This document shows positions 3,564 through 59,912 of a stretch of 64,000 nt of DNA, one piece after another. Each line of letters begins with the position of its first letter. Position 1 is the stretch's first letter. The position numbers were made by a program, and so were the translations under genes. The stretch is from an uncultured Bacteroidales bacterium (GTDB lineage: Bacteria > Bacteroidota > Bacteroidia > Bacteroidales > Paludibacteraceae), in NCBI GenBank assembly GCA_902800215.1, contig CADCDS010000003.1, positions 1 through 64,000 of the forward strand, read 5' to 3'. Under the pieces are notes generated by a model. That model ran no database searches. It saw only the letters and a list, made by a program, of their open reading frames with translations, and was not told the DNA's origin.

Positions 3564-4202
3564 ATGACAGTTGAGGAGTACATTTGTGCGCATAGCACGC
3601 CTGAAAATGAGGTTTTGCAGTCGATTACAAGAGAGACGAATCTGCATGTTTTGAATCCGCATATGCTGAGCGGGCATGTGCAGGGCCGGGTGTTGAGTAT
3701 GATCAGTTGGATGATTCGGCCGAAGCGGATTCTGGAATTGGGGACGTTTACGGGTTATTCGGCGTTATGTTTGGCAGAGGGTTTGGCAGAGGGCGGAAAG
3801 TTAATCACGATCGAACATAACGACGAGTTGGAGGAGATGATAAGACGCAATCTATCTCGCTCACCTCTCGGCGACCGGATCGAATTGCGTATTGGAGATG
3901 CAATTGAAATAATTTCAAATTTCAAATTTCAAATTTCAAATTTCGACCTGGTGTTTATGGATGCGGATAAGCGGGAATATTGTGCGTATTTGGAGGCGGT
4001 TTATCCGTTAGTGCCGGTAGGTGGGTTTATATTGGCAGACAACACCCTTTGGGACGGTCATATTGTAGATCCGGCCTATGATAAAGACAAGCAAACGCAA
4101 GGGTTGAGGGCGTTTAATGACAGGCTGTGCGAAGATGACCGTTTTGAACAGGTGATACTCCCTCTTCGCGACGGTTTGACGCTTATGCGAAAAATAAAAT
4201 AG
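3564..4202 (+). CDS. SAM-dependent O-methyltransferase (COMT/YrrM type)
   Basis: 212 residues from ATG 3564; an upstream ATG at 3522 lies before the predicted transcription start and is not used. The fold is recognised from ILELGTFTGYSALCLAEGL (SAM motif I, about 50-70), the acidic TIEHNDE strand, and VFMDADKREYCAYLE, the metal-binding DADK motif. The family methylates catechol-like or other hydroxyls with Mg2+; the substrate is unknown. Oddity: a heptamer array (TTTCAAA, 4.6 copies) encodes NFKFQISNF just before the conserved FDLVFMDAD strand, adding about 7-9 residues to a surface loop. Confidence 0.92.
   Translation: MTVEEYICAHSTPENEVLQSITRETNLHVLNPHMLSGHVQGRVLSMISWMIRPKRILELGTFTGYSALCLAEGLAEGGKLITIEHNDELEEMIRRNLSRSPLGDRIELRIGDAIEIISNFKFQISNFDLVFMDADKREYCAYLEAVYPLVPVGGFILADNTLWDGHIVDPAYDKDKQTQGLRAFNDRLCEDDRFEQVILPLRDGLTLMRKIK
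3911..3944 (+). repeat. TTTCAAA heptamer array inside the O-methyltransferase gene
   Basis: 4.6 perfect head-to-tail copies of TTTCAAA. In frame it encodes alternating F, K, Q, I, S, N. No stop codon occurs in any forward frame of this unit. Perfect copies make it prone to slippage of 7 nt, which would shift the frame. Confidence 0.95.
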
Positions 4203-4220
4203 AAAAAAAACGCGCGCACG

Positions 4221-4252
4221 CTTGCGTATGTCAAAAAAAAGTTGTATCTTTG
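4221..4252 (+). promoter_or_regulatory. Promoter of the outer-membrane protein/waaA/hisS run
   Basis: CTTGCGTATGTC with CTTG at 4221-4224, 20-bp spacer containing an A8 tract, TATCTTTG 4245-4252, then CACCCGAATTG. The leader would be about 45 nt. It is the only clear promoter before rsgA. Confidence 0.85.
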
Positions 4253-4302
4253 CACCCGAATTGTATGAAACAAACATTTTATTCACTTAAAATATTGTAA
4301 TT

Positions 4303-4791: not shown

Positions 4792-6002
4792 TGTCGGTAT
4801 TCGGACATAAGATGAAAGCTTTGTTCCGCGGACAGCGTCAGACGCTGGACGCGGAGCATCGCGTATTATTAGAAGCCAACAAAGGGGCTATCTGGTTTCA
4901 TGCGGCGTCTGTAGGTGAGTTTGAGCAGGCGAGGACGATAATAGAGCGGTTACGGGTTACGGGAAACGGGTTACGGATCGTAGTTACGTTCTTCAGTCCG
5001 TCGGGATATGAGGCACGGAAGGGATATGAGCAGGCGGACGGGGTGTATTACCTACCCTTTGCAACGCGGCGGAATGCGAAGCGGTTTATCGAAGCTTTGC
5101 AGCCGAGCATGGCGATCTTTGTGAAGTATGAGTTTTGGCCGGCTTATCTGCGGGAGTTGAAGAAACGGGCTATTCCAACGTACAGTATCTGCGCGATCTT
5201 CCGACCGAAGCAGCGTTTCTTCCGCTGGTGGGGTAAGTTACATCTGAATGTACTGAAATGCTTCACGCATATATTCGTACAAGACGAGGCATCGCTGCAG
5301 TTGTTGACGAGCCACGGTGTGAGTCAGGCGAGTGTTGCCGGCGATACGCGGTTTGACAGAATGGCAGAGGTAAAGGCGAAGGGACGAATGGTGAATGGTG
5401 GAAGACTGACACCGATTGCACATTTTACGGAAGGATTTGAACGGGTGATTGTGGCAGGAAGCACGTGGCCGAAAGACGAGGCGCTGTTAGCGCAGTTTAT
5501 GAATACGGACCAAGTTACTAAACTCGTTCTGGTGCCGCACGAGATTGATGAGAAGCATATGCACTTTATCTTTAACTTGTTTAAGGGGCAGATGGTGAAG
5601 TATTCTGCGGTGAGTGAGATGAAGGATGCCATCAGCAGGCGGAATATCTTACAGAACGCACGTGTGTTGGTAGTCGATACGATGGGACTGCTGAGTGCGA
5701 CGTATCCGTTTGGTCAAGTGGCGTATATTGGAGGCGGATTTGGAGCAGGAATCCATAACACGATTGAGGCGGCGGCGTATGGTATGCCGGTGGTCTTCGG
5801 ACCGAGATACCATCATTTCCGTGAAGCGCAGGGACTGATTGATGCAGGTGCAGCACGGAGTATTAAGAAATATAGCGAGTTAGAGGCGGCGCTTGGTACC
5901 GCACTCGATCAACATGAGTATATAGGCGCCAAAGCAGCTGCATATGTGCAGAGCGAGATAGGGGCGACATCGAAAATCTGCAAAGCAATTTTCGATATTT
6001 GA
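4791..6002 (+). CDS. waaA: 3-deoxy-D-manno-octulosonic acid transferase (Kdo transferase)
   Basis: 403 residues from ATG 4791 (the frame stays open further upstream, but only across the preceding barrel gene). It transfers Kdo to lipid A precursor at the inner membrane. The Kdo-transferase N-domain shows WFHAASVGEFEQA with the catalytic Glu, and the C-domain has VVDTMGLLSATYPFGQVAYIGGGFGAGIHNTIEAAAYGMPVVFGP (key residues GGG and NTIE around 310-325). Odd: family members normally begin with a hydrophobic membrane anchor; this one starts MSVFGHKMKALFRGQ and has none. A heptamer array encodes RLRVTGNGLR around residue 55. Confidence 0.93.
   Translation: MSVFGHKMKALFRGQRQTLDAEHRVLLEANKGAIWFHAASVGEFEQARTIIERLRVTGNGLRIVVTFFSPSGYEARKGYEQADGVYYLPFATRRNAKRFIEALQPSMAIFVKYEFWPAYLRELKKRAIPTYSICAIFRPKQRFFRWWGKLHLNVLKCFTHIFVQDEASLQLLTSHGVSQASVAGDTRFDRMAEVKAKGRMVNGGRLTPIAHFTEGFERVIVAGSTWPKDEALLAQFMNTDQVTKLVLVPHEIDEKHMHFIFNLFKGQMVKYSAVSEMKDAISRRNILQNARVLVVDTMGLLSATYPFGQVAYIGGGFGAGIHNTIEAAAYGMPVVFGPRYHHFREAQGLIDAGAARSIKKYSELEAALGTALDQHEYIGAKAAAYVQSEIGATSKICKAIFDI
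4947..4977 (+). repeat. GGGTTAC heptamer array inside waaA
   Basis: Four copies: CGGTTAC, GGGTTAC, GGGAAAC, GGGTTAC. The same family recurs twice in the RluA-type gene at 29879 and 30143, encoding the closely similar peptide LRVTGDGLR. Confidence 0.9.
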
Positions 6003-6014
6003 TATTTGATATTT
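5993..6014 (+). repeat. TGATATT heptamer array at the waaA-hisS junction
   Basis: Three copies (CGATATT, TGATATT, TGATATT). The array supplies the last codons and the TGA stop of waaA. The same unit ends aroE at 38680. Confidence 0.85.
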
Positions 6015-6021
6015 TAGATTT

Positions 6022-9068: not shown

Positions 9069-9818
9069 ATGAGAACAAGAATGGTAGCAGGTAACTGGAA
9101 AATGAACAAGAACCTGCAAGAAGGTGTAGCATTGGCTACCGAATTGAAAGAAGCAGTAAAAGAACCGAAATGTGCCGTTGTTATCGGTACGCCGTTTATC
9201 CACCTGGCAACGGTAAGTGAGTTGTTGAAGGGTTCGGCTATCAAGGTAGCAGCAGAGAACTGCGCAGATCACGAGAAGGGTGCATATACCGGTGAGGTAA
9301 GTGCTGAGATGGTTAAGTCCACCGGTGCTGAGTACGTGATCTTGGGTCACTCGGAGCGTCGCCAGTACTATGCAGAGAGCTATGAGATGTTAGCAGAGAA
9401 AGTTCGTCTGGCTTTAGCTAACGGTCTGAAAGTGATCTTCTGCATCGGTGAGGTGAAGGAAGAGCGTGAGGCCGGTAAGCAGAACGAGGTTGTTAAGGCA
9501 CAACTGGAAGGATCGGTATTTGGTCTGAGTGCAGAGGAATGGAAGAATATCACTTTGGCTTATGAGCCGGTATGGGCTATCGGTACGGGTTTGACTGCAA
9601 CGCCGGAACAAGCACAGGAGATCCATGCGTATATCCGTGGTTTGGTGGCAGAGAAATACGGTAAGGTTGCTGCAGAGGACACGACGATCCTGTACGGCGG
9701 AAGCTGCAACGAGAAGAACGCTGCTGAGTTGTTCGCTTGCCCGGATATCGACGGAGGTCTGATCGGTGGTGCTGCACTCGTAGCAGAGAAGTTCCTGGCT
9801 ATTATCGCTGCGCGTTAA
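9069..9818 (+). CDS. tpiA: Triosephosphate isomerase
   Basis: 249 residues. It interconverts dihydroxyacetone phosphate and glyceraldehyde 3-phosphate in glycolysis. Catalytic residues are visible: Asn-Lys in AGNWKMNK (about 10-13), His in ILGHSERR (about 95), and Glu in [11 protein letters not shown] (about 168). The phosphate-binding GG near LIGGAAL closes the barrel. The stop codon lies in an 8-nt repeat array. Confidence 0.98.
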
Positions 9819-9848
9819 ACCGTTAAATCGTTAAACTGTTAAGCTGTT
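9813..9848 (+). repeat. YGTTAAAN octamer array, tpiA-carbonic anhydrase spacer
   Basis: 4.5 units: CGTTAAAC, CGTTAAAT, CGTTAAAC, TGTTAAGC, TGTT. It provides the TAA stop of tpiA and runs up to the ATG of the next gene, so the spacer is entirely repeat. Confidence 0.95.
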
Positions 9849-10373
9849 ATGGCTTTAATCAAAACGATCAATCGGAATGGTGAAATTCTCACACCGCACA
9901 TTGCCGACGACGTGTTCATGGCAGAGAATGCCACGGTTGTCGGCGATGTGACGGTAGGAGAAGGAAGCAGTTTATGGTTTAACTCGGTTCTTCGCGGTGA
10001 CGTGAACACGATCGTTATCGGTAAGCACTGTAATATCCAGGACGGCGCGGTGCTGCATACGCTGTATCAGAAATCGACGATTAAGTTAGGCGACTACGTG
10101 TCGGTGGGTCATAACGTGACGATTCACGGTGCTGACGTCGATGACTATGCGTTGATTGGTATGGGTGCTACCCTACTCGACGATGCGCATGTGGGTGAAG
10201 GTGCGATTGTGGCCGCTAATGCGCTGGTGCTGAAAGGCACGCAGATAGGTCCTCATGAGATCTGGGGCGGTGTGCCGGCTAAGTTCATCAAGAAAGCCGA
10301 CCCGGCGCAGACGGAAGAGATGAATAAGAAAATTGCGAATAACTATGCCATGTATGCAAGTTGGTACCGTTAA
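9849..10373 (+). CDS. Gamma-carbonic anhydrase-like (left-handed beta-helix) protein
   Basis: 174 residues of hexapeptide repeats (about 15-140) typical of the YrdA/PaaY branch of gamma-carbonic anhydrases. Putative Zn ligands are the His residues in VLHTLY (near 80), VGHNVTIHGADV (two His near 97 and 102). A C-terminal helix follows (AQTEEMNKKIANNYAMYASWY). Whether it hydrates CO2 or is a related acyltransferase-fold protein cannot be told. Confidence 0.88.
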   Translation: MALIKTINRNGEILTPHIADDVFMAENATVVGDVTVGEGSSLWFNSVLRGDVNTIVIGKHCNIQDGAVLHTLYQKSTIKLGDYVSVGHNVTIHGADVDDYALIGMGATLLDDAHVGEGAIVAANALVLKGTQIGPHEIWGGVPAKFIKKADPAQTEEMNKKIANNYAMYASWYR

Positions 10374-12576: not shown

Positions 12577-14232
12577 TTACTTGATTTCCAAACCATCAAC
12601 GGTATATATCTTCTCTCCGCGTTGGATAAGGATTTGTCCTTCGCGGAGTTTTTTGATCGCTATTGGCTCTTGGCTATTAGCTGTTGGCCATTCAACTCCT
12701 TGCGGTTGATAGCCGTCATCCATGGGTGATTTATGGGTGATGGCGTAGTCGAGGTACATTTCCAACATGGTGTAACCGCTTTCGTGAAGGGTGTTATTGT
12801 CCGGAACGGAAGGATTACAGCCGTTGGCCATTTCCCAACTGTCCGGCATGCCATCGAGGTCCGTATCCGTTTCAGCAACCACGGAGACATAGGCATAGAA
12901 TCCTTCGGCGTCGGAAGGAATATCGATGATGCCTTTCTTCTTAGACTTATAACCGCTATAGGTGTAGGAATTGGTTCGTGTCTCTTCGATGATGCGGTTC
13001 TCTACATGGTCACGCGGGAAAACACCTACGGTATCCAAAACCGTCTGATAGGCTTGTTCTGCTGTTTCAAACATTCCCGCAGCATAGGCAAGGGCATCAA
13101 AATCATAGAGACCGGAGAACTCGGTGGAGTCTGCATTGCAGTCCCAGTACGGCGTTTTTGTACGTATCAACGTATCTACGCGTGCCTGATCCTGGGTGTA
13201 GGTCTTGATGGTGACGGCAGACCAGTTATCTTCTGTCGCCGTCGGTACTCCGTCAAAGATGTTTCCATGGATATACCATTGACTGGCCCCCCGACTGGTG
13301 GCACCGCTGCGTTGCAGATCAGCTACCACGAAGAGAGGGGTGTTGGTGGTATTCGGACCTTTGATGTAATAGTTATTCACAAAATTGACCTCATGTCCGG
13401 AATTACGGCCGTTGTAGTACTTATCGTCGCATGTATTCTCTCCGCCGTGGCAACCGCTGCTACCTCCATAATAATTGAAATTCACATTGTTAATGTAATC
13501 CAGATAGACGATTCGGTCATTATTCCGTGCGCCGTTAAAACGGCAGGAACGACCGTTGTTATGCGCTAACAGATTATGATGGTAGGAAGCCGGCGAACCG
13601 CCCCATTGACAGCCGTATCCACGTGAGCCTTTCGGATGACCGGAGGTGTACAAGCCTTCATGCACGAGGCAATATTGAACCGTAAAGAAATGGCTGTCAA
13701 AGGTATTGATGTTCTCTTCCGCTGACCAACCGAAGTCGCAATGATCGAGGATGAAGTTGGAGCAGTTCTCTGCACCAAACGCATTCTCTTTACAGAAAGA
13801 TCCTGCCGCATCTTCATTTCCTACCCGGAAACGGATGTTTCGAATGATGAAGTTCTCCGATCCGCCGCAGTTGACTTTGTTGTGCGTGATGACGATACCT
13901 ACACCGGGCGCTGTTTGTCCGGCGATGGTGTAGTTCTTACGGTTGATACGCAGGTCTTTGACGAGCCGAATCTCACCGGTCACAGCAAAACAGACGGTGA
14001 TGGGTTCATCAGGAAATTGCTTCATGGCCCAACGGAGTGATCCTTCTGTTTCTCCATTCGCGTCATCGGCAAGGCTGGTCACATATACGACTTTACCTCC
14101 ACGACCACCGGCAGTGAATTTACCGAATCCTTCGGCACCCGGGAAAGCGGGAAGTTGTGCAAAAGCGATTAATGCACTAAAGCAGCCAACTGCTGCCATA
14201 ATGAATCGTTTGGTACTGGAGCTGTAATGCAT
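12577..14232 (-). CDS. Secreted polysaccharide lyase family 1-like protein (pectate lyase type)
   Basis: 551 residues. Signal peptide with a basic n-region (STKRF) and cleavage near FAQ. Then FPGAEGFGKFTAGGRGGKVVYVT, the start of the right-handed parallel beta-helix in pectate lyase-like proteins, with helix rungs FIIRNIRFRVG, FILDHCDFGWS and VNFVNNYYIKGPN. The segment TDTDLDGMPDSWE (about 460) is a calcium-type DxDxDG repeat. The tail, LREGQILIQRGEKIYTVDG, resembles C-terminal domains of type IX-secreted Bacteroidales proteins; this is a judgement by eye. Substrate probably pectin-like, unproven. A heptamer array encodes TANSQEPIA between the body and that tail. Its 5' end overlaps the upstream gene by 64 nt. 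Confidence 0.85.
   Translation of the reverse strand: MHYSSSTKRFIMAAVGCFSALIAFAQLPAFPGAEGFGKFTAGGRGGKVVYVTSLADDANGETEGSLRWAMKQFPDEPITVCFAVTGEIRLVKDLRINRKNYTIAGQTAPGVGIVITHNKVNCGGSENFIIRNIRFRVGNEDAAGSFCKENAFGAENCSNFILDHCDFGWSAEENINTFDSHFFTVQYCLVHEGLYTSGHPKGSRGYGCQWGGSPASYHHNLLAHNNGRSCRFNGARNNDRIVYLDYINNVNFNYYGGSSGCHGGENTCDDKYYNGRNSGHEVNFVNNYYIKGPNTTNTPLFVVADLQRSGATSRGASQWYIHGNIFDGVPTATEDNWSAVTIKTYTQDQARVDTLIRTKTPYWDCNADSTEFSGLYDFDALAYAAGMFETAEQAYQTVLDTVGVFPRDHVENRIIEETRTNSYTYSGYKSKKKGIIDIPSDAEGFYAYVSVVAETDTDLDGMPDSWEMANGCNPSVPDNNTLHESGYTMLEMYLDYAITHKSPMDDGYQPQGVEWPTANSQEPIAIKKLREGQILIQRGEKIYTVDGLEIK
12662..12692 (-). repeat. TTGGCT heptamer array inside the pectate-lyase-like gene
   Basis: Plus-strand units ATTGGCT, CTTGGCT, ATTAGCT, GTTGGCC. 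It encodes the linker TANSQEPIA before the C-terminal tail. The same family appears at 24880, 39792 and 54270. Confidence 0.9.
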
Positions 14233-14849: not shown

Positions 14850-15646
14850 AATCCACGTTGACGAATGGCTTCGTAAATAAACACGCCAGCGGCGACGGAG
14901 ACATTGAGCGACTCAATGACGCCGGTCATCGGTAAGCGCACTTTGTCCGTACAGAGTTTGAGGTTCTCCTCATAGATACCCTTCTCTTCAGACCCCATGA
15001 CGATACAGGTAGGAACGGTCATATCAACTTCCGTGTAGTTCCGATCGGTGTGTTCAGTGGCCGCCACAATACGCAGACCACTCTCCTGCAGGTAATGCAA
15101 AGCGTTTTGCAGGTTCTCCACTTTGCATATCGGCAGACTGTGCAGTGCGCCGGCAGACGCTTTGACGGCATCTCCGTTGATGGCTGCACTTCCACGCGTA
15201 CCTATGATTAACGCGTGTACACCTGCGCACACGCAGGTACGAGTGATGGCACCGAAGTTACGCACATCGGTCACGCCATCCAGCATAACGAGCAAGGGTG
15301 TCTTGCCTTCATCGTACAGCGATGCCACCAGGTTTTCCAAAGGATAGAACTCAATGGGACTGAGAAAAGCGATCACGCCTTGATGGTTCTTGTCTGTGAA
15401 TTGGTTGAGTTTCTCCAGCGGTACCCGTTGAATCTGCGTACCGGTTCCTTCGAGTTTAAGCAGCAGTTCTCTACCGATAGCTGAACTCATATCTCTACGG
15501 ATCAGCACTTTATCCAATGCCTTACCGGCATCGATGGCTTCCATCACGGCACGGATACCGAAGATCATCTCTTTCTCTTTCGGTCTACGTGTCTCGTAAG
15601 ATGTACGATTGGACGATTTACGATTTACAATTTTATCTTGAAACAT
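14846..15646 (-). CDS. rlmB: 23S rRNA (guanosine-2'-O-)-methyltransferase RlmB/TrmH family
   Basis: 266 residues. An N-terminal substrate-binding domain (IFGIRAVMEAIDAG onwards) is followed by the SpoU/TrmH knotted domain with motif 1 VTDVRNFGAITRTC (about 128), motif 2 IVMGSEEKGIY (about 215) and motif 3 LPMTGVIESLNVSVAAGVFIYE (about 240). Members methylate G2251 of 23S rRNA or a related site. The first 20 residues (KIVNRKSSNRTSYE) come from a heptamer array and are probably dispensable. Confidence 0.93.
   Translation of the reverse strand: MFQDKIVNRKSSNRTSYETRRPKEKEMIFGIRAVMEAIDAGKALDKVLIRRDMSSAIGRELLLKLEGTGTQIQRVPLEKLNQFTDKNHQGVIAFLSPIEFYPLENLVASLYDEGKTPLLVMLDGVTDVRNFGAITRTCVCAGVHALIIGTRGSAAINGDAVKASAGALHSLPICKVENLQNALHYLQESGLRIVAATEHTDRNYTEVDMTVPTCIVMGSEEKGIYEENLKLCTDKVRLPMTGVIESLNVSVAAGVFIYEAIRQRGL
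15604..15632 (-). repeat. TACGATT heptamer array at the rlmB N-terminus
   Basis: Plus-strand units TACGATT, GGACGATT, TACGATT, TACAATT; one unit is 8 nt. It encodes the low-complexity N-terminal residues of rlmB. Confidence 0.75.
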
Positions 15647-30764: not shown

Positions 30765-30780
30765 ATCGTTAAATCGTTTA
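30751..30780 (+). repeat. YGTTAAAN octamer array, bactofilin-DUF1015 spacer
   Basis: Units CGTTAAAA, CGTTAAAT, CGTTAAAT, CGTTTA. It contains the bactofilin TAA stop and most of the gap. Confidence 0.95.
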
Positions 30781-32036: not shown

Positions 32037-32066
32037 CTGGTCAACTGGTCTACTGGTCAACTGGTA
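32035..32066 (+). repeat. AACTGGTC octamer array, DUF1015-PorE spacer
   Basis: Four units AACTGGTC, AACTGGTC, TACTGGTC, AACTGGTA. It overlaps the DUF1015 stop and fills the 37-nt gap to the next ATG. Confidence 0.95.
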
Positions 32067-37075: not shown

Positions 37076-37110
37076 ATTGTTAAACTGTTAAATTGTTAAA
37101 TTGTTAAAAC
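37062..37110 (+). repeat. YGTTAAAN octamer array spanning the ettA stop and tilS start
   Basis: Six units: GGTTAAAC, GGTTAAAT, TGTTAAAC, TGTTAAAT, TGTTAAAT, TGTTAAAA. It supplies the end of EttA with its TAA and, in another frame, the TTG start codon of tilS. It is the longest octamer array in the window. Confidence 0.96.
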
Positions 37111-38683: not shown

Positions 38684-38708
38684 TATTTGATATTTGAAAT
38701 TTGATATT
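38681..38708 (+). repeat. TGATATT heptamer array, aroE-DUF4831 spacer
   Basis: Units TGATATT, TGATATT, TGAAATT, TGATATT. The first TGA is the aroE stop; the array fills the gap to ATG 38712. Confidence 0.92.
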
Positions 38709-38711
38709 TAT

Positions 38712-46864: not shown

Positions 46865-48845
46865 GCACATATTAGTCTTTTGTCTTTTGTCCCTTTTCCT
46901 TGTTCCGGCAAAGGCGCAGTTGAATACCGACCGCATCACGGCGATCGGTAGGAATGCCTTGTATTTTGAAGATTATATCCTGTCGATTCAGTATTTTAAT
47001 CAGGTGATTCGTCTGAAGCCGTATTTGGCGGAACCCTATTTCTACCGTTCGATCGCCAAGATTCAGTTGGAGGACTATCAGGGTGCGTTGAATGACTGCA
47101 ATGCCGCGATAGAGCGTAATCCGTTTTCTCCGGGTTATTACTATGCACGAGGTTATATCTACCGGCAGATGAAGCAGGCGGACAAGGCGGAAGATGACTA
47201 CACGCAGGCATTGCAATTCTCGCCGGAGAACCGCACCTATATGTTATTACGCGCAGACACGCGTGCGGAACGCAAGGAATACAAGGCGGCGTTGGAGGAT
47301 ATCGAGTGGTTACTGAAACGAGAACCGCAGTCAGCATCCTTCTGGAGTGAGAAAGGTCAAGTGTCGTTCTTGAAAGGCGATACCCTGCAAGCCGTGGAGG
47401 CTTTTGAACAAGCGGCTAAGTACGACAAGACCAATCCGGCCATCTGGTCTGCGTTGGGTGTGATTAACCTGATGTTAGAGCGGGAAGAAGATGCGTATGT
47501 GCAGCTAAGCCAGGCGATTAACTTAGGTTCAAAATGGGCAGGCGACTATATCAACCGGGGTCTGTTGCATTATCGGAAGCATAACTACCGTGGTGCGTTA
47601 TCGGATTTTGATCAGGCGGTGAAGATCTCCCCCCGTGATGCGGAGAGTTATTATAACCGCGGTATTATGCGGCAAGAAGTGGGTGACTACAACAAGGCGT
47701 TGGAGGACTTGAACACCGCTATTTCCCTGGATCCGGAACGAACAGAGATGCGTTATCAACGCGGCCTGATCGAGTTACAACTCAAACAATGGAGTGCTGT
47801 CGTGGAGGATATGAACGCGATGATTGCCCGTTATCCGTATTTCCTGCCGAGTTATTATGTAGCGGCGCAGGCGTGCACCAAGCAGGGTAAGGATAAAGCG
47901 GCTTACCGGTACAAGGAGCAAGCGGCGGAATTAGAGCAGCGCAAAGAGGAGATCCAGGCACAGCAGGCGAGTCAGCCGAAGACCGATATGCTGATTGCTG
48001 ACGCCCAGCCGCAGAAGAAAGACTACCGAAAGGAGTTTTCTGCCAATACCGCGCAAAATCAGACAGATCTTCCGGAAGAGGAAGAGAAATATGAATCTCA
48101 GACCCGTGGAACGGTGCAGAAACGCCATCAAGACATCGTGTTAGAGTCCAATATCGTACTCAGTTATTACAGTCAGGATTTGAGTTTGAGACGTACGAAC
48201 TACTACCATCCGACGGTAGATCAACTCAACAAACGGGAAGTGTTACCGGCGGCCTTGCGTTTTACGTGTCAGGAGTTGACCTTGACGGCAGAGATGGTGG
48301 ATTTCCATTTTGCGGAGATTACCCGTCTGTCGCAGATGATCGACGAAGGACCGACCGCCGCGTTGTATTTCGCTCGAGCGATCGAGTTTGCGGTCGTTCA
48401 GGACTACACCAGTGCCATTGACGACTGCACGAAAGCGACCTTGTTAGCCGATCCGGATATGACGCTTATTCTGACCTTCTGCCGTGCCAATTGGCGGTAT
48501 CGTCTGTTTGAATACCAGCGTGCGACAGGAGAACAGGAAGCGACGGCATCGATGGATTTTGACATCATGCTTCGAGATTATGATCAAGTGATTCGACTGC
48601 AGCCGGACTTTGCGTTTGCATTGTACAACAAGGCCAATATCCTCTGTGCGCAACACGAGTGGAAAGACGCCATCGAGTATTACACGCGTGCCATTGCTCA
48701 GGATGTGGATTTTTCCGAAGCCTATTTTAACAGGGGGTTGACCTATCTCTACACCGGTGAGCACGAGAAAGGTCTGGCGGATTTGAGTAAAGCCGGAGAG
48801 TTAGGTATTTACCAGGCATATAATTTGATTACCCGATTTAAATGA
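46848..48845 (+). CDS. Exported TPR-repeat protein
   Basis: 665 residues. Signal peptide (RHILVFCLLSLFLVPAKAQ) encoded over a TTTGTC heptamer stretch. At least nine TPR units between about 30 and 365 (AYFYRSIAKIQLEDYQGALNDCNAAIERNP-type spacing; long run split here by description), a Gln/Lys/Glu-rich linker (about 370-430), then a second TPR block (about 500-660). TPR arrays mediate protein binding in the periplasm; partner unknown. It lies between PBP1A and the TraB/GumN-like gene in an envelope-related run. Confidence 0.88.
   Translation: MKVANRHILVFCLLSLFLVPAKAQLNTDRITAIGRNALYFEDYILSIQYFNQVIRLKPYLAEPYFYRSIAKIQLEDYQGALNDCNAAIERNPFSPGYYYARGYIYRQMKQADKAEDDYTQALQFSPENRTYMLLRADTRAERKEYKAALEDIEWLLKREPQSASFWSEKGQVSFLKGDTLQAVEAFEQAAKYDKTNPAIWSALGVINLMLEREEDAYVQLSQAINLGSKWAGDYINRGLLHYRKHNYRGALSDFDQAVKISPRDAESYYNRGIMRQEVGDYNKALEDLNTAISLDPERTEMRYQRGLIELQLKQWSAVVEDMNAMIARYPYFLPSYYVAAQACTKQGKDKAAYRYKEQAAELEQRKEEIQAQQASQPKTDMLIADAQPQKKDYRKEFSANTAQNQTDLPEEEEKYESQTRGTVQKRHQDIVLESNIVLSYYSQDLSLRRTNYYHPTVDQLNKREVLPAALRFTCQELTLTAEMVDFHFAEITRLSQMIDEGPTAALYFARAIEFAVVQDYTSAIDDCTKATLLADPDMTLILTFCRANWRYRLFEYQRATGEQEATASMDFDIMLRDYDQVIRLQPDFAFALYNKANILCAQHEWKDAIEYYTRAIAQDVDFSEAYFNRGLTYLYTGEHEKGLADLSKAGELGIYQAYNLITRFK
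46875..46900 (+). repeat. GTCTTTT heptamer array encoding a signal peptide core (TPR gene)
   Basis: Units GTCTTTT, GTCTTTT, GTCCCTT, TTCCT. Encodes VFCLLSLFL. Confidence 0.8.
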
Positions 48846-49741
48846 GAGCCATACGACACATATTTATCCTTTGTCTTTTGTCCTTTGTCCTTATTCCGGT
48901 AAAAGGTCAGTTGCTATACGAGATTTCGGGTAACGGGGTGAAAGACAAATCGTATCTGTTAGCGACGAACCGTTTGGTGGATATGACTTTTCTGGACACG
49001 ATACCGAATGTGTTCAAATGCTTTGGACAATGCGATAAAGTGATCACGGAATTTGCAATGCAAGACTATGAAGCCTTGTCTGCATTACGCCAGGCAGCGG
49101 TGCTACCCGACTCGATTAAACTGAGTAATTTTTACAGCGAAAGCGAATATACGCTAATTGATAATAGTCTTCGCATTGGTTTGGGCATGGGTTTAGATCA
49201 GCTATGCCGCATGAAACCGGCGTATCTGACGGAGATGTACCGAACGGAATTGATGAAGAATTGGTTGCAGTTTGACGAGCAGCGATCGATGGAGAGTTTC
49301 TTCGAATCGATCGCCGCAGAACGGGATATGCCGGTGATCGGATTGGATGATATCGGGGAGACGATGTACATGCTTTTTGACCGGGAACCGTTTCATTGGC
49401 AGTGCACAGAGTTGCTGAAAGTGATCGAATATCCGGAGAATGAGGTGAAGCAAGAGAAGACGCTGAAGGCGATGTATCTGGACGGCAGACTGAGCGATAT
49501 CGCGTACCAGGTGGAAGGGCCGGATAACAAGACCAGTATCTCCTTTTCGGACTATAAAGTCTATTGTGCGCGAAACAAAGAATGGGTCAAACGGTTAAAG
49601 AAACACCTGAAGGACGGGAATGCGTTTATCACGCTCAATGCCATCTATTTGGGAGGCGAGAAAGGATTAATTGAACAACTACGGGCGGCAGGATATCGGG
49701 TTCGGCCCGTGAACAGAGGAATAAAATTAAAACAACAATAA
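48842..49741 (+). CDS. TraB/GumN-like exported protein
   Basis: 299 residues. Signal peptide (RHIFILCLLSFVLIPVKGQ). The order of segments, LLYEISGNGVKDKSYLLATNRL, then CDKVITEF, and C-terminal YLGGEKGLIEQLRAAGYRVRPV, matches the TraB/GumN (Tiki-like) family of possible metalloproteases. The first motif is usually GTxH; here it reads ATNR, lacking the conserved His, so catalysis may be lost. ATGA overlap with the TPR gene. Confidence 0.75.
   Translation: MRAIRHIFILCLLSFVLIPVKGQLLYEISGNGVKDKSYLLATNRLVDMTFLDTIPNVFKCFGQCDKVITEFAMQDYEALSALRQAAVLPDSIKLSNFYSESEYTLIDNSLRIGLGMGLDQLCRMKPAYLTEMYRTELMKNWLQFDEQRSMESFFESIAAERDMPVIGLDDIGETMYMLFDREPFHWQCTELLKVIEYPENEVKQEKTLKAMYLDGRLSDIAYQVEGPDNKTSISFSDYKVYCARNKEWVKRLKKHLKDGNAFITLNAIYLGGEKGLIEQLRAAGYRVRPVNRGIKLKQQ
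48866..48895 (+). repeat. CTTTGTC heptamer array encoding a signal peptide core (TraB-like gene)
   Basis: Units CCTTTGT, CTTTTGT, CCTTTGT, CCTTATT after ACATATTTAT. Encodes FILCLLSFVLIP. Confidence 0.88.
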
Positions 49742-50300: not shown

Positions 50301-52503
50301 ACATATATTTATCCTTGTTCTTTGTGCCTTGTTCTTTGTGCCAGCCAAGGCCGATATCGGCATGCAGGAGTTAGGGGACTCGTTAACCGCATGGACCGGT
50401 TTTTCATCCGTGTGGTCACCGGCCGTAAAGGTGAAGAACCTGCGTGTGAATGGGAACAAGATCACGGTCAAGACCAATAAAACACTCAAAGATGTACGCT
50501 GGACGACCGCCAATATCGCTGAACTGAAACGCAAAGTGAGTCGTTGGGTGCTGGGTCATGAGAAAGGCAAAGTGACCATTCAGACGGCGAACATCGATAT
50601 CGAGAATTTGGTTACCAACTGCGCCAAAGGCATTCTTGCAACCGGAAAACCACACGACTTATCGGACCGAAACATTGCTTTGTATCCGAGTCACGGTCTG
50701 TATTACAACCGGGATCGGGATGAGTGGATCTGGCAACGTGCTACCTTATGGACCACGGTAGAGGACCTGTACAGCCAGGAATATGTGCGGCTGATCAAGC
50801 AGATGTTGGAGAATGCCGGTGCGACGATCCATATGCCGCGTGCCGGTCTTGAGCAACAACAACGAGGTATCTCCGGCATGCCGGCTTGGACCGAAGGCGC
50901 ACGCTATTGGTTGATCTCGCAAGGTGCCGACTCTACCCTTTGGAACTTATACGAAGGGGATGAGTATAAGGATGACATGAAGTGCAGGGCGCTGTGGATC
51001 AATTCCTTAGAGACACCGATCGACCTGTGTCTGGCTTTTCATACCGACGGAAACGACAGCGGCAATGACAGCACGATCATCGGCACGCTGGTTATCTACA
51101 CTGCCAAGGACGATGACGGACATAGCAAGCTGAGAGACGGCAGAGACCGGGAGACCGTGAACCGAAACTTAGCGGATTGGATTCAGACGCAGGTGACGGA
51201 AGACTTACGGCATATCGCGCCGGAATGGACAAGGCGGCAACTCAAAGAAGCCAATTACTGTGAGACGCGTGTGCCGGTGGTGCCGAGTATCATCCTGGAA
51301 CTGTTGAGTCACAAAAACATGGCCGACATGCGGTACGGTTTGGATCCCAAGTTCCGTTTTGCCGCCAGCCGTGCCGTCTATAAAGGCATCTTACGCTATC
51401 TGAACGGTACCAACGCGGTGGTACAACCCTTACCTGTTCAACAATTGGCGATCACACAGGAAGGAGTGTTACAATGGAGACCCACTATTGATAGTCTGGA
51501 AACGACGGCTACCCCATCCTATTACATGGTGTATATTCAGGAGAATGACGGCGACTGGAATGTCCAGCAAGTGGAAGAAGTGACGGAATTGCAGGTAGAG
51601 CTGAAACGCGGAGTACTATATAACTACTATGTCGTCGCCGGCAATGAAGGAGGTCTGAGTATGCCGAGTCCTATTGTAAGCGCATATATGAGTGAGCAGG
51701 AGAATGCACCTATGGCGCTGGTGGTGGATGCGTTTGACGATGTGTACGGCGTAGAATGGTTCGCTGACAGCACCTATGCCGGTATCGTGCCGGGCAGTTA
51801 TGCCTGTGAGAACTATTTCTCTTGCGCGTATATCGGCGAACAATGGAACTACACCCGCAGCGATGAATGGAAAGATGACGATAACTGCGGTTGGGGAGCT
51901 TGTTACCGCGACTATGCCGGCAAACAAACCATCGGCAACACCCATGACTGGTGTGCCCAACACGGACGAGTACTGCGCCAAATGCGAATCTCGTATGTCA
52001 GTTGTACGGCGGGAATGAAGGAAGCCTTCAGCCTTCAGCCTTCAGTATTCAGTCTTTTGGATATTGTCTGCGGTAGGCAGAGAGATGCATTATCGGCTGA
52101 GATCCAACAGTTTATCGCACCGTATCTAGATAAGGGCGGTAAGTTGTTACTGAGCACCGATCATTTCAGTTCTCTCGATCCCCAATGGGCAAAGAAGTAC
52201 CTGCACGCGCAGTACTATGCGGCGCAGGCTACGCACAGCGGCCGTGTCGTCAGTTCAAGGCATCGCCCGTATCAACTGGTGTTAAGGCCGAATGCGGAAC
52301 AGCTTTTCACCTGTCATCCGGAAGGATTAAAACCGGCGGACAATGAGGCAGAGAAAATTGCCACGTACGCAGATATGCGGTGTCCGGCAGCGATAGGTTA
52401 TAATCACCGCACCTTAGTGTTCGGTTTTCCGTTGGAAGCGACGCAGGATTTTGAAAGTATCTGCCAGCATGCGCTCGAATGGCTGATGAATGAGGAGGAA
52501 TAA
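50287..52503 (+). CDS. N-acetylmuramoyl-L-alanine amidase-like exported protein
   Basis: 738 residues. Signal peptide (FKHIFILVLCALFFVPAKA). Residues about 120-375 resemble an Amidase_3 domain: IALYPSHGLYYN (Zn His), LCLAFHTDGNDSG (second His), VVPSIILELLSHKNMADM (catalytic Glu). A fibronectin-III-like domain (about 390-470) and a C-terminal alpha/beta domain of unknown type follow. Homologues in Bacteroidota are sometimes mislabelled xanthan lyase. It would cleave peptidoglycan cross-peptide from sugar. Heptamer array near residue 580 encodes FSLQPSVFSLL. Confidence 0.82.
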   Translation: MRIFKHIFILVLCALFFVPAKADIGMQELGDSLTAWTGFSSVWSPAVKVKNLRVNGNKITVKTNKTLKDVRWTTANIAELKRKVSRWVLGHEKGKVTIQTANIDIENLVTNCAKGILATGKPHDLSDRNIALYPSHGLYYNRDRDEWIWQRATLWTTVEDLYSQEYVRLIKQMLENAGATIHMPRAGLEQQQRGISGMPAWTEGARYWLISQGADSTLWNLYEGDEYKDDMKCRALWINSLETPIDLCLAFHTDGNDSGNDSTIIGTLVIYTAKDDDGHSKLRDGRDRETVNRNLADWIQTQVTEDLRHIAPEWTRRQLKEANYCETRVPVVPSIILELLSHKNMADMRYGLDPKFRFAASRAVYKGILRYLNGTNAVVQPLPVQQLAITQEGVLQWRPTIDSLETTATPSYYMVYIQENDGDWNVQQVEEVTELQVELKRGVLYNYYVVAGNEGGLSMPSPIVSAYMSEQENAPMALVVDAFDDVYGVEWFADSTYAGIVPGSYACENYFSCAYIGEQWNYTRSDEWKDDDNCGWGACYRDYAGKQTIGNTHDWCAQHGRVLRQMRISYVSCTAGMKEAFSLQPSVFSLLDIVCGRQRDALSAEIQQFIAPYLDKGGKLLLSTDHFSSLDPQWAKKYLHAQYYAAQATHSGRVVSSRHRPYQLVLRPNAEQLFTCHPEGLKPADNEAEKIATYADMRCPAAIGYNHRTLVFGFPLEATQDFESICQHALEWLMNEEE
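50313..50342 (+). repeat. Exact 14-nt tandem repeat in the amidase signal peptide
   Basis: Two perfect copies of CCTTGTTCTTTGTG plus CC. It encodes the hydrophobic core LVLCALFFV. Loss or gain of one copy would shift the frame. Confidence 0.95.
52026..52053 (+). repeat. CTTCAGC heptamer array inside the amidase gene
   Basis: Units CTTCAGC, CTTCAGC, CTTCAGT, ATTCAGT. Encodes AFSLQPSVFSL in the C-terminal domain. Confidence 0.92.
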
Positions 52504-53512: not shown

Positions 53513-54536
53513 GGAAGCGTACGTCATTCTCCGAGAACAGGCGCAGGTCCTTGACGCGGTATTTGAGGTTCGTGATACGCTCCACACCCATACCGAAAGC
53601 ATAACCGCTGTATTCCTTACTATCTATACCGCAGGCTTCGAGTACGTTGGGGTCCACCATACCGCAGCCGAGGATTTCCACCCAACCGGTGTTTTTGCAG
53701 AATGAACATCCTTTGCCGCCGCAGATATTACAGCTGATATCCATTTCGGCACTCGGTTCCGTGAACGGGAAATACGACGGACGGAGACGAATCTTGGTCT
53801 CTGCTCCGAACATCTCCTTACTGAAATACAGCAATGCTTCCCGCAGGTCAGCAAAGCTGACATTCTTGTCGATATACAGTCCTTCTACCTGATGGAAGAA
53901 ACAGTGTGCACGCGCCGAGATAGCTTCGTTACGATATACCCTACCCGGACAGAGCACACGGATCGGCGGTTTCTGGCTGGTCATAACACGTGTCTGCACA
54001 GACGAAGTATGGGAACGCAGCAGGATATCCGTCGGTTTTTGCACGCCGATCTCTTTCTCCACGAAGAACGTATCCTGCATGTCACGAGCCGGGTGTTCGG
54101 GTGCAAAATTAAGCATGCCATAGACGTGCTTGTCATCTTCCACTTCCGGTCCCTGCGCAATGGTGAAACCGATACGGCTGAAGATATCTTCGATCTCTTC
54201 ACGCACGAGCGACAAAGGGTGACGGGTACCTAAAGCGATAGGATCCGGCGTACGAGTGAGGTCAACACTTTGGCTGTTGGCTTTTAGCTGTTGGCTTTCG
54301 ATCGTCTCTTTGAGTTCATTGATACGGCTTTCAGTTTCCTGACGCAGCTGGTTCAATAGCTGGCCCAATTCCCGTTTCTGCTCTGCCGGTACGGTACGGA
54401 ACTCATTGAAGAGCGAGGTAATCTCGCCTTTCTTACTGAGATACTTGATACGCAGCGCTTCCAATTCTTCCGCATTCGCTGCTTTTAAGTCTTTGACTTG
54501 GCCTAATAAGGCTTGAATATTTTCTTTTAATTCCAT
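53490..54536 (-). CDS. pheS: Phenylalanyl-tRNA synthetase alpha subunit
   Basis: 348 residues from ATG 54536 (MELKENIQALLGQV); a longer frame runs into the upstream gene and is not used. N-terminal coiled coil (about 1-85), then the class II core: HPLSLVREEIEDIFSRIGF, VLLRSHTSSVQTRVM, ICPGRVYRNEAISARAHCFFHQVEGLYID (near 200, split here), and GMGVERITNLKYRVKDLR. The beta subunit is not in this window. A heptamer array encodes ESQQLKANSQS at the coil-core junction. Distal gene of the gdhA run. Confidence 0.95.
   Translation of the reverse strand: MELKENIQALLGQVKDLKAANAEELEALRIKYLSKKGEITSLFNEFRTVPAEQKRELGQLLNQLRQETESRINELKETIESQQLKANSQSVDLTRTPDPIALGTRHPLSLVREEIEDIFSRIGFTIAQGPEVEDDKHVYGMLNFAPEHPARDMQDTFFVEKEIGVQKPTDILLRSHTSSVQTRVMTSQKPPIRVLCPGRVYRNEAISARAHCFFHQVEGLYIDKNVSFADLREALLYFSKEMFGAETKIRLRPSYFPFTEPSAEMDISCNICGGKGCSFCKNTGWVEILGCGMVDPNVLEACGIDSKEYSGYAFGMGVERITNLKYRVKDLRLFSENDVRFLKQFESC
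54270..54297 (-). repeat. TTGGCTG heptamer array inside pheS
   Basis: Plus-strand units TTGGCTG, TTGGCTT, TTAGCTG, TTGGCTT. Encodes the polar linker QQLKANSQ between coiled coil and catalytic core. Confidence 0.94.
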
Positions 54537-55240: not shown

Positions 55241-55241
55241 A

Positions 55242-56948: not shown

Positions 56949-56961
56949 ATAAATTTATAAT

Positions 56962-56986
56962 TTACCATTTACCATTTACCATTTAC
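56962..56986 (-). repeat. TTACCAT heptamer array at the fusion-gene stop
   Basis: Plus-strand units TTACCAT, TTACCAT, TTACCAT, TTAC. On the minus strand it supplies the last codons and TAA stop (56978-56976) of the 978-residue gene and fills the spacer to the Na/Pi gene. Confidence 0.9.
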
Positions 56987-59912
56987 AAATAGCTTTGTTA
57001 TTAAAGCCATCGACGTACATCTCCAGCGGTTTATCGAGCCGGATATGCCGTACCAGTTCTGTTTCTTCCACTGCCGGCATCGCATCCAGTGCAGCGATAT
57101 CGAGTATATCTTCCGGTCTCGCCCAAGGATCGATATTCATATATCCGACATTGAAGGACGTGAGGTTCTGGAAGAAATGACTGCCCTGCGACGGTTCGAT
57201 ACGGAAGTTCTCCAGACTGCATTCCGCAATCGCTTTGGCTTCGCTGATATCTCCCCAAGCAACCGGTACTCCAAGTGTCGGGATCTGGGATCCCCAACGG
57301 CCGTAACCGATCAGCAGGTACTGTCTTCCTTCCTGCTGCATACGTCTGTTCCATTCCCGGATGGTGTCCGCCATTTCCCGAGTACGCAGGATATCGAATG
57401 CTTCCTTGCGCAGGTAGATAATATCGCATACGTCCTCTATCTTTCCGATACCCAAGGCATTGCCGGAACGGAGGAGCGCACCGCTCTCATCGATCTTGGA
57501 CCAATCCACTTCCGCCGTCAGCGAGTCCGCCGATATAGGCCGGATCTGCAGCACATGGAAGATCTGCGGCTCATGTATCATGTTCACCGCAAACTCGATC
57601 TCGACGGGTGTCTTGATCTCCTGCTGGGCGATATCCATCAGTTCCCGGATGATCGGTGTCAACGGGAAAGTGTTGAACTTCAACTGCGGTGCAAAAGTAA
57701 TGATTCTCGGTCCGTCGGGGTAACAGGAATCGACGATACGCATATTCTCCCGATCGTAAGTAGAAGCAATGAGTTTGAGCGAATCGAATTGACTGCAATC
57801 ATGCACCGCTATTCGCTCCAAATTCACCGCATCATCTACCGAAGTCTTGAACCGTTCCGGACTAAGCGACAGCGCTAACATCGACTGCTGCGTTTCCCGC
57901 ATAGCGAGGTCAACCGTAGAAGTCTGCAGCACGTTCTTCGGGTACTTGGGACTGAACCGTAACACTTGTTCGCCGTCTACTACCGCCTTACCCAAACCGT
58001 AGGCGATCTTGACGATACCGTCTTCGGGTTTCTCTTTGCCCACCGGATAGAAATTGATGCTGCGTGCCACACCGGAGATCGTCGGGAAATAGAATCCGTT
58101 CTCCTCTTCACCGCATACTTCCTGCAGCACAATAGCCATCTTTTCCTCACTCGGCACGTTACCCGTCGAGACGATATACCCACGCGATGCAGCGAAATAA
58201 ACGGATGCATAAACGGATTTCACCGCCTTGCTGAGCATACGCAGCTGCTGGTCCTCATTCTCCGTGTTCGGAATCATGTAGGTGCTATAAACCCCGGCGA
58301 AAGGCTGGTAATACGAGTCTTCCAGTTTAGAAGACGACCGAACCGCTAACGGGCGATGGGTCACCTGAATGAAATGCCGTAAGGCATCCCGTAACTCCAA
58401 CGGCAGCATCGCTGCCACAAACTCCGAGAGGATCTCCTCATCCGTGAGGTCGGCATTGATGACGTATTGAAGACCGTTATCATGGATGAACTGATCGAAA
58501 TAGTCGGTGGTGATCACCATCGTACGCGGCACCAGCACACGCACGTCGGGCCATTTGTCGAACAATTCATATTTCTGCAGCATATGGTTCAGGAAGGCGA
58601 GTCCTCTACCCTTTCCTCCCAGCGCGCCGTCACCGCAACGGGCGAACCAGATGGTGTTGTTATACGTATCCTTGTCGTATTTGGCTACCACACCCAAGGC
58701 CTGGTTAATACGGTAGTCATGAATCAAGCGTATATTAATCTGCCGGATGTTCTCGATATCCGTCTCATCCTGGATCTTGAGTGCACTGACGGGTCGTCCT
58801 ACAGAGAACAGACCGCGTGCAAAAAGCCATTTGGACAAGTAGTTGTTATCACTTAACCGCCGGAAAGCAGCCGGCGAGATGGTGGAGATGATGCGTTCGA
58901 AGCCTTCCAGGTCTGACGCACGCGCAATCTCCTTACCGGTACGGGGATCCCGGGCGATGAAATCACCGAAACCGAACTCCCGTTCGATATATTCGCTTAC
59001 TTCTTGCAGCAGGGTCTTGGATTTCTTGACCACAAAACCCACCTTCAGCTTATTGGCCACGGACCGCATGGACTCCTGCGAACTCTGCATGAGGAACGGC
59101 ATGGTCGGATTCTCTTCCCGGATGAGCTGGCATAACTCGATACCGGCATCCAGTTTCTCCGACGAAGCCGGATCACCTTTATGCAGCACAAAACCGATAT
59201 CGGAGATGACACCGATGATGTTCCGGCTATAGCGGTTATAGAGTTCGATGGCTTCGTCGTAACAAGTTGCCATCAGCACTTTCGGACGTGCTCGTTTACG
59301 GAGTAATTGCTGTTTCTCATTGAGCGCATCCCGGATGGCGACGGTGTTCTGCTGCAGCACCAGTTTGTAGAGCAGCGGCAGGTAAGTCGAATAATACCGC
59401 ACACTGTCTTCTACCAGCAAGATCGCCCGTACCCCTTCTTCCAAGATATCGTGTTCGGCATTGAGCCGGTCCTCTATCAGTTTGATGATGGCGATGATCA
59501 GGTCGGTGGAGTTATTCCAGTTAAAGAGATAGTCCACATAGGACTTATCCTGCTGCTCAATACGCCGGTACACCTCTTTGCTGAACGAAGACAGCAGCAC
59601 GATCGGACAGGAAGGCAGCAGCTGCTTGGCCTGCTGCGCAAACTCCCACACATCGTTTCCTCCGGCACTATAGACCACGATGATCAGATCAAACCCTTCG
59701 CCATTCGCCCTTATCCGTTCCAGCGCCTGCTGCGTCGTCTCGGCACGGGTGATCGAAGGAGGATTGCTCAGATTCAACTGCGCATACTCCTGGGCGATCT
59801 GCACGTCGATGCGGCCGTCTTCCTCCAGTGCAAAACTGTCATAGTTATTGCATACCAGCAGGATCCGCCGGACACGTTTCGACATCAACGATGTGTAGTT
59901 GCTATTATCCAT
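56976..59912 (-). CDS. Receiver-like/PEP-synthase ATP-binding fusion protein
   Basis: 978 residues from ATG 59912, which overlaps the gdhA stop (TAATG); the frame extends further upstream only across gdhA. Two receiver-like domains come first: about 12-135 (RRILLVCNNYD, DLIIVVYSAG, PIVLLSSFS) and about 150-300 (ILLVEDSVRYYSTY, GVISDIGFVLHKG, FLMQSSQES, GFVVKKS). From about 440 lies a pyruvate phosphate dikinase/PEP synthase ATP-binding domain (GDGALGGKGRGLAFLN, PLAVRSSSKLEDSYYQPFAGVYST, IEFAVN then HVLQIRPI). No swivelling His domain or PEP-binding barrel is seen, so it cannot be a complete PEP synthase. Role unknown. A heptamer array encodes RANGEGF near residue 75. Confidence 0.82.
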   Translation of the reverse strand: MDNSNYTSLMSKRVRRILLVCNNYDSFALEEDGRIDVQIAQEYAQLNLSNPPSITRAETTQQALERIRANGEGFDLIIVVYSAGGNDVWEFAQQAKQLLPSCPIVLLSSFSKEVYRRIEQQDKSYVDYLFNWNNSTDLIIAIIKLIEDRLNAEHDILEEGVRAILLVEDSVRYYSTYLPLLYKLVLQQNTVAIRDALNEKQQLLRKRARPKVLMATCYDEAIELYNRYSRNIIGVISDIGFVLHKGDPASSEKLDAGIELCQLIREENPTMPFLMQSSQESMRSVANKLKVGFVVKKSKTLLQEVSEYIEREFGFGDFIARDPRTGKEIARASDLEGFERIISTISPAAFRRLSDNNYLSKWLFARGLFSVGRPVSALKIQDETDIENIRQINIRLIHDYRINQALGVVAKYDKDTYNNTIWFARCGDGALGGKGRGLAFLNHMLQKYELFDKWPDVRVLVPRTMVITTDYFDQFIHDNGLQYVINADLTDEEILSEFVAAMLPLELRDALRHFIQVTHRPLAVRSSSKLEDSYYQPFAGVYSTYMIPNTENEDQQLRMLSKAVKSVYASVYFAASRGYIVSTGNVPSEEKMAIVLQEVCGEEENGFYFPTISGVARSINFYPVGKEKPEDGIVKIAYGLGKAVVDGEQVLRFSPKYPKNVLQTSTVDLAMRETQQSMLALSLSPERFKTSVDDAVNLERIAVHDCSQFDSLKLIASTYDRENMRIVDSCYPDGPRIITFAPQLKFNTFPLTPIIRELMDIAQQEIKTPVEIEFAVNMIHEPQIFHVLQIRPISADSLTAEVDWSKIDESGALLRSGNALGIGKIEDVCDIIYLRKEAFDILRTREMADTIREWNRRMQQEGRQYLLIGYGRWGSQIPTLGVPVAWGDISEAKAIAECSLENFRIEPSQGSHFFQNLTSFNVGYMNIDPWARPEDILDIAALDAMPAVEETELVRHIRLDKPLEMYVDGFNNKAICKW
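59696..59720 (-). repeat. TTCGCC heptamer array in the fusion gene
   Basis: Plus-strand units CTTCGCC, ATTCGCC, CTTATCC, GTTCC. Encodes RIRANGEGF in the first receiver-like domain. Confidence 0.75.

Follow-up and report, generated by a model that had tools for sequence, protein, structure and literature searches.

How does a sequence with a period of seven nucleotides come to be repeated in tandem inside many unrelated protein-coding genes? The question is raised by the 64-kb stretch of DNA analyzed here (the window, contig CADCDS010000003.1), which belongs to an uncultured Bacteroidales bacterium (the host) represented by a metagenome-assembled genome (MAG) of 1.96 Mb in 30 contigs, 85% complete, in which the ribosomal S7 family gave no match. 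The host encodes PorE and PorD, proteins of the type IX secretion system (T9SS) typical of Bacteroidota, and is not a filamentous cyanobacterium; the closest named relatives of its RluA-like protein, at 68% identity, are uncultured Bacteroidales MAGs. The original prediction, made from the window alone, compared its heptamer arrays with the short tandemly repeated repetitive sequences (STRRs) of filamentous cyanobacteria, heptanucleotide STRRs being the name for such repeats in Calothrix and Nostoc. The comparison is borne out in form, as the arrays are degenerate 7-nt tandem repeats dispersed over the genome. Our analysis gives good support to a spread of arrays through this genome and to their filtering by selection.

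Tandem periodicity was scored with +1 for a match and −2 for a mismatch; a score of at least 12 defines a strong array, weaker ones are listed from a score of at least 10, and 30 dinucleotide-preserving shuffles serve as the null for window counts. The window contains 12 strong period-7 segments, against a mean and a maximum of 0 in the shuffles, and 18 exact period-7 runs of at least 8, against a shuffle mean of 0.73 (maximum 2). A chance origin of the window arrays is ruled out by these shuffles, and the prediction that such arrays are more frequent than in shuffled sequence stands. Periods 3–6 gave no segment at a score of at least 12, period 8 gave 5 arrays at that score and none in the shuffles, and periods 14 and 21 also appear because period 7 implies them. 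Tandem Repeats Finder returned 24 period-7 rows, some with barely two copies. Nineteen coordinates had been predicted, of which 13 are recovered at a score of at least 10 (3911, 4948, 24880, 29580, 29712, 29880, 30143, 31456, 38076, 46875, 48863, 52023 and 56952). Four more (12659, 26267, 39792 and 54270) are found only as tentative, degenerate Tandem Repeats Finder arrays with 74–80% matches. The remaining two could not be upheld: position 53350 has just 2.1 copies of a different unit, GTTAATG, and no repeat is listed by Tandem Repeats Finder at 59696. Three period-7 arrays (5994, 15613 and 38678) and five octamer arrays had been overlooked.

The arrays are a property of the genome rather than of the window. 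With open reading frames (ORFs) called by a simple longest-ORF rule, an 848-kb sample of the host (43%) contains 154 period-7 arrays (18.2 per 100 kb), tandem, slightly degenerate and dispersed. They lie wholly within ORFs in 98 cases, at ORF edges in 30 and between ORFs in 26. The density is 88 per 100 kb outside ORFs, where the edge arrays are included, versus 12.5 per 100 kb of ORF, and the higher density outside fits insertion everywhere plus purifying selection. Within ORFs the arrays are clustered, with three in each of five ORFs and seven in one, where 0.8 and about 0 such ORFs are expected. A search with GGGTTACGGGTTAC, one mismatch allowed, matched 116 places in the host versus 1 for the reversed pattern. 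Periods 3–5 are not enriched in either the window or the 848-kb sample.

The lengths of these arrays do not form a falling series but peak at 31–32 nt (45 of 154), and the median is alike wherever the array lies: 32 nt in ORFs, 32 at edges and 31 between genes. Congeners, and loci L020–L080, which are mostly Prevotella, have their largest class at 30–33 nt as well (28 of the 66 arrays in L020–L080). For period 7 the median copy number is 4.4 in the host and 4.6 in congeners; for period 8 it is 4.5 (36 nt) and 3.9 (31 nt), respectively. For longer periods the medians in host and congeners are 3.1 and 2.7 (period 9), 3.7 and 3.7 (period 10), and 3.3 and 3.8 (period 11). Either copy number or total length may be the fixed quantity; octamers differ between host and congeners, and periods 9–12 have fewer copies. 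Tandem arrays of an 11-nt unit, with about four copies and mostly outside ORFs, were also seen in several congeners (loci between L132 and L161).

The selective filter can be read from orthologues. The comparison took in 43 window ORFs, including a few antisense ones, each set against one or more of nine relatives; the listing treats ORFs rather than checked genes, includes period-8 arrays and counts junction arrays for both neighbors, giving 88 array entries (period 7 or 8), 38 of them anchored on both sides. For period-7/8 arrays in ORFs with at least two relatives, the length differs from array-free orthologues at 27 of 32 array sites versus 49 of 860 control windows (Fisher p about 1.5e-26), and the array-free orthologues have a median identity of 15% at array sites (29) versus 82% at controls (858). 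Arrays are present in at least one species at 18 of the 31 internal indels of at least 4 amino acids (aa), yet they occupy just 584 of 61,184 residues (0.95%). Omission of five doubtful rows (three in the antisense ORF 30311–30730, the contig end 43491–44552 and the poorly aligned gene 56976–60083) leaves 16 of 26. These comparisons agree with the proposal that arrays are tolerated in variable stretches of otherwise normal enzymes, and the homologues compared show no conservation of the array peptides. The arrays had further been regarded as insertions or expansions. Among 35 with an array-free orthologue, 21 are indeed longer, but 7 are equal and 7 shorter, so that they are not solely insertions. 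Gains in multiples of about seven residues, which were anticipated, are not seen as a rule, the commonest positive differences being +3 aa (6 arrays) and +8 aa (5 arrays). At the +8 sites inspected, the DNA between the anchors is hardly more than the array itself.

Two genes serve as examples. The rluA-like gene (28967–30265) has four arrays on the plus strand. The ATTGGAA-type array at 29566..29603 occupies a site where L001 and L002 have a GGTTACA array, while the TTTCAAA array at 29712..29743 adds 8 aa relative to L001 and L002 and 6 relative to L003. The GGTTACG array at 29880..29909 is 2 aa shorter than L001 and L002 and equal to L003, and the GGGTTAC array at 30143..30173 adds 8 aa relative to all three. 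In an AlphaFold2 model built from 22 sequences (mean predicted local distance difference test, pLDDT, of 79), the pLDDT is below 50 at residues 204–212 and 394–403, stretches that overlap the first and the last array, and residues 305–315 of the third array replace the loop between strands 296–304 and 315–319. Three of the four arrays are therefore modeled on loops or on low-confidence parts of the protein. No NCBIfam match was found in the approximately 216 N-terminal residues before the synthase domain. In aroE (37961–38683), the plus-strand AAATTGG array at 38076..38107 has different counterparts in four congeners, namely TGAAAGG in G006, ATGGACA in G002 and AAGTCGA in both G015 and G022; G021 and G004 have none at the threshold used. 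A second array, ATTTGAT (38678..38709, plus strand), spans the aroE stop codon. Where relatives share an array family at one site, the peptide length is equal: this holds for rluA in L001/L002 (two sites), for aroE in G015/G022, and for the AATTAAA array at 31456..31493 (plus strand) of ORF 30789–32036, shared by the window species, G015 and G021. All of these are species-level pairs.

Selection on the reading frame is visible as well. In a pure 7-nt array of at least three copies, 21 nt are enough for all three phases to be read, and the claim that units could keep their stop codons out of frame is therefore impossible for such an array. Because 3 does not divide 7, an open unit gives one 7-residue peptide in any frame and is frame-proof on that strand. 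In 17 of the 98 ORF arrays the pure unit would yield a stop inside the array; all 21 such codons are substituted, compared with 159 of 927 other codons, although part of this follows from how ORFs are defined, as they end at stops. In the AATTAAA array at 31456 and its G021 counterpart, the would-be stop is avoided via different substitutions.

The units themselves form a restricted repertoire. The 89 arrays of a 464-kb host sample fall into 46 unit classes, whereas random genomic heptamers give a mean of 85 and a minimum of 79 (500 draws). AATCTCC (13 arrays) and GGGTTAC (12) lead. The GGG tract is confined to one of the 46 classes, GGGTTAC, with 12 of the 89 arrays, and TAACTGA is absent among the classes of this 464-kb sample, to which the search was limited. 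Variant units are also few in kind. The 19 single-base variants of the GGGTTAC family are of 4 kinds, where 12.7 are expected if all 21 are equally likely; the 34 of AATCTCC are of 9 kinds versus 17.0 expected under uniform substitution, and the 13 of AACAGCC of 6 kinds versus 9.9. These small numbers could owe something to mutational bias and stop avoidance. Arrays on different genome pieces also have the order of their variant units in common above the level of shuffles: for two-unit and three-unit blocks, the sharing is reached by 3 and 22 of 1000 within-array shuffles, and by 11 and 34 of 1000 when units are dealt anew. One end phase is preferred in 10 of 14 AATCTCC and 8 of 9 AAAGTTG arrays, while AAAAATT and AAAGGTG ends are spread. 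Two further patterns were set aside. Units 1–2 resemble units 3–4, as in a doubling history, but array detection favors matching end units and no conclusion is drawn. The GGGTGAC variant, considered as proof of block transfer in opposite orientation, is found in 3 of 5 antisense ORF arrays versus 0 of 5 non-ORF arrays, which is too few.

The trait is patchy among relatives, and the unit sets vary between genomes. Searches covered 24 congeneric genomes. In six congeners, sampled over 27–114 kb, the density of period-7 arrays ranges from 7 to 47 per 100 kb; in twelve others, sampled over 11–20 kb, it is 0 to 20, six of them having none. No array was found in 30 kb of two other genera of the host family, in 148 kb of eight other families of the order, or in 190,245 unmasked bases of 13 further genomes from other families, where four apparent arrays proved to be masked pieces. 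On the other hand, 39 Prevotella-type loci have 64 arrays in 708 kb (9.0 per 100 kb), against none in 435 kb of 27 loci titled as other phyla or just "bacterium". The 67 period-7 arrays listed for L007–L080 include one run of N; in L020–L080, 30 of 66 arrays lie in ORFs. Arrays are present in two of four Prevotella isolate loci, and within ORFs in one (Prevotella sp. MA2016). Two unit patterns searched across 295 genomes of the order matched 14 and 8 genomes, led by the host and congener G269 (90 overlapping matches). The backward-read control pattern matched 9 genomes, up to 42 times in one, implying that other heptamer arrays are present in other genomes. Among IMG/VR loci L171–L210, 21 and 19 viral-contig stretches contain the first and the second of the two leading units, respectively, in tandem form.

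The repertoire, the variant order and the end phases moderately favor copying of existing arrays. We give about an even chance to an explanation by which STRR-like repeats spread mostly through such copying, with some slippage, and then pass a selection filter. By way of a few homologous bases, a nascent DNA strand would switch to an existing array as template and then return, each event writing about 31 nt that add to or overwrite the prior sequence. Some arrays would come from local slippage. Selection would then eliminate arrays that disrupt frames, introduce stops or fall on constrained positions, and the survivors may provide some of the hydrophobic, signal-peptide-like segments at N-termini. 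This explanation needs no cellular function of the arrays as such.

Several points weigh against it. The copying step is inferred from species-level comparisons, and template switching does not readily account for a preferred length near 31 nt. The sharing of variants is modest, and mutational bias, stop avoidance or shared ancestry could be partly behind it; fixed end phases are confined to some families. The comparisons depend on longest-ORF calling and include some antisense ORFs. The fit to loops is also imperfect, as the RluA residues 249–259 of the second array (29712..29743) overlap the end of helix 246–253 before running into coil. The aroE array stretch aligns to the solved structure of a shikimate dehydrogenase, 2hk7, with at most 1 gap residue nearby, so that the array there replaces rather than adds sequence.

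The main rival, which has a real though minority chance of being correct, is replication slippage on the spot from a resident heptamer, the families merely reflecting favored unit sequences. Polymerase slippage has been offered as a hypothesis for the over-representation of heptamers in bacteria, as quoted in PMC4692102. In ORF 50287–52503, the window species has a single AATCACC where G015 has an AATCACC array. Moreover, the array-free orthologous sequence is somewhat closer to the actual units than to permuted ones (the likeness was matched by 46 of 5000 permutations, antisense ORF 30311–30730 omitted), which counts against copying in that it fits local seeded slippage, or decayed arrays, too. 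Nevertheless, slippage is poorly reconciled with a length peak at 31–32 nt in place of a falling series, with the absence of length gain in 14 of the 35 tested arrays, with the restricted repertoire of units and variants, and with equal peptide lengths where relatives share an array family at one site.

Alternatively, a counting or templating process not previously described may write about 31–36 nt, or ~4.5 copies, of a 7- or 8-nt word. Such a process would work with no conserved flanks and, in this host, with no reverse transcriptase detected; we regard it as improbable. If true, it would amount to a novel type of minimal mobile DNA, by which loops and N-terminal segments of proteins are remodeled in part of the Bacteroidales.

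A dedicated enzyme, such as a reverse transcriptase, a telomerase-like repeat adder or a transposase, that writes or mobilizes arrays is unlikely. The preferred array size and the family-specific end phases could be its counted product, and one reverse transcriptase match was obtained in G015, which is the richest in arrays among the congeners sampled. At least one match to the reverse transcriptase family PF00078 was found in 4 of 16 genomes of the genus searched, G015 and G002 having one each. However, G008 has three and no array in a 20-kb sample, and the array-bearing congeners G001, G005, G006, G007 and G014 have no PF00078 match. In the host genome, 85% complete, PF00078 gave no match, and a reverse transcriptase was thus rejected as the writer here; transposases were not searched for. 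Inspection by eye of 81 aligned arrays from three families revealed no conserved flank either.

More unlikely still is the retention of arrays by selection as functional sites, namely quadruplexes, regulator-binding sites or phase-variation switches. Precedents exist: G-quadruplexes have been linked to the four-unit preference of GGGAATC in Xanthomonas (PMC4692102), and translational control to TAACTGA repeats close to start codons (PMC4679880). The host arrays, on the contrary, lack GGG in 45 of 46 classes, lie within unrelated genes at unconserved positions and differ between species at one site, and a one-unit change within a gene would disrupt its frame.

Loss of mismatch repair leads to repeat instability and could have made the genome repeat-prone, but this is very improbable, as a MutS-family domain is present in 25 of 25 genomes, with two matches in the host (MutL was not tested), and periods 3–5 are not enriched. 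An assembly or sequencing artefact, conceivable for a MAG, has a negligible chance given similar arrays in several separate assemblies and in the isolate contig of Prevotella sp. MA2016, with frames kept.

The other arrays of the window are as follows. A perfect AATTTCA array of 4.9 copies (3911..3944, plus strand), found by both Tandem Repeats Finder and the period score, lies in ORF 3522–4202, which has weak methyltransferase-family matches and for which no orthologue was retrieved. ORF 4731–6002, of the KDO-transferase family, contains a GGTTACG array (4948..4976, plus strand), with a length equal to that of the G006 orthologue, and a GATATTT array at its 3′ end (5994..6021, plus strand; detected by both methods). 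On the minus strand, an AAATCGT-type array (15613..15633) lies at the N-terminus of ORF 14846–15646, an end at which G002 and G015 have different repeats; an AGCCAAC array (24880..24911), encoding SQQPIANSQQP, lies in ORF 24222–26204, which has peptidase/esterase-like matches and no orthologue retrieved; and a GGTAAAT (ATTTACC) array (56952..56986) sits at the junction of ORFs 55242–56948 and 56976–60083. Degenerate period-7 arrays without an assigned strand, which only Tandem Repeats Finder lists and of which the first three are weak, are those at 12659..12692 (predicted as TTGGCTG), 26267..26293 (TTCGCCC), 39792..39818 (TTGGCTG, in porD) and 54270..54296 (TTGGCTG, in pheS, with period 14 at 93%).

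Three neighboring genes, starting at 46848, 48842 and 50287, have arrays in the N-terminal hydrophobic stretch in several species, and by their sequence these stretches appear signal-peptide-like. In the window, such arrays are GTCTTTT (46875..46891, plus strand) in the tetratricopeptide repeat (TPR) protein 46848–48845 and TTTGTCC (48863..48892, plus strand) in ORF 48842–49741. An AGCCTTC array (52023..52056, plus strand) marks an indel site of ORF 50287–52503, 3 aa shorter than in G006 and G002 and 11 shorter than in G015. Separately, AAAGGTG-type arrays followed by TTTCA-type arrays were observed in G015 at the N-terminal ends of three neighboring genes (L143, near 12714, 14760 and 16295), where both the start codon and the N-terminal hydrophobic segment may be repeat-derived.

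The five octamer arrays, likewise without an assigned strand, lie outside called ORFs (ATCTCGGT, 1982..2011), between genes (CGTTAAAT, 30751..30778) or at gene junctions (GTTAAAYY, 9813..9849; AACTGGTC, 32035..32065; GTTAAATT, 37062..37108). Among the octamer arrays of the host (GTTAAAYY, CGTCATNN and others), 37 of 42 are between genes or at ORF edges; both strands of GTTAAAYY contain stops. In L142 near 17268 and on the minus strand of L146 near 13807 and 13984, we noticed a CCCCCAACCCCTCCCTGAAGGG element that resembles a hairpin and encodes PQPLPEGK, together with a variant. It is placed in variable loops of the orthologue of ORF 30789, where other species have heptamer or octamer arrays, and is perhaps a second small element. 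An AT-rich 21-nt tandem repeat (3.4 copies, 70% matches by Tandem Repeats Finder) occupies positions 61640–61709 of the window.

In-frame acceptance of small repeats in many unrelated genes is known from the Rickettsia palindromic elements. The host arrays have this in common with them, but the Rickettsia elements are longer and palindromic, whereas the host arrays are short direct repeats. Among heptamers, the closest parallels are described in three papers. The P6b heptamers of the Nostoc trnL intron (PMC4476775) are degenerate 7-nt direct repeats too, and one heptamer class replaces another at one site, as in aroE and rluA of the host. They lie in a structural RNA of a cyanobacterial phylum, however, while nearly two thirds of the host arrays are in ORFs, in frame. 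Nostoc heptamers are mainly intergenic (PMC4692102), in contrast to the host with 98 of 154 arrays wholly in ORFs, though denser outside. Rehm (2015) reported that GGGNATC heptamers of Xanthomonas and Nostoc prefer four units and explained this by G-quadruplexes (PMC4692102). Those repeats and the host arrays are both genome-wide heptamers of about four units (host median 4.4), yet the former are G-rich and under-represented in coding regions, and the latter lie mostly in ORFs, with 45 of 46 classes devoid of GGG. MacGregor (2015) described TAACTGA repeats in Beggiatoaceae, cyanobacteria and five Bacteroidetes (PMC4679880). They resemble the host arrays as heptamer direct repeats, those in ORFs are mostly peripheral, and possible mobility is raised by the author. 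They differ in being a single unit, mostly intergenic and near start codons, compared with 46 classes in the host sample that do not include it. The statement that nothing similar is described for the lineage therefore needs qualification: TAACTGA repeats are on record for the phylum, and no description of in-frame heptamer arrays in Bacteroidales was found in a non-exhaustive search of the open-licence literature.

With GGG in only one of 46 classes, the quadruplex account of four-unit heptamers cannot be general, and the similar copy number of units without GGG indicates that the four-unit preference is separable from G-quadruplexes. The old question of why bacteria favor heptamers thus becomes testable through comparison of strains. 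For the species compared here, the arrays are a concrete, countable and main source of protein indels.

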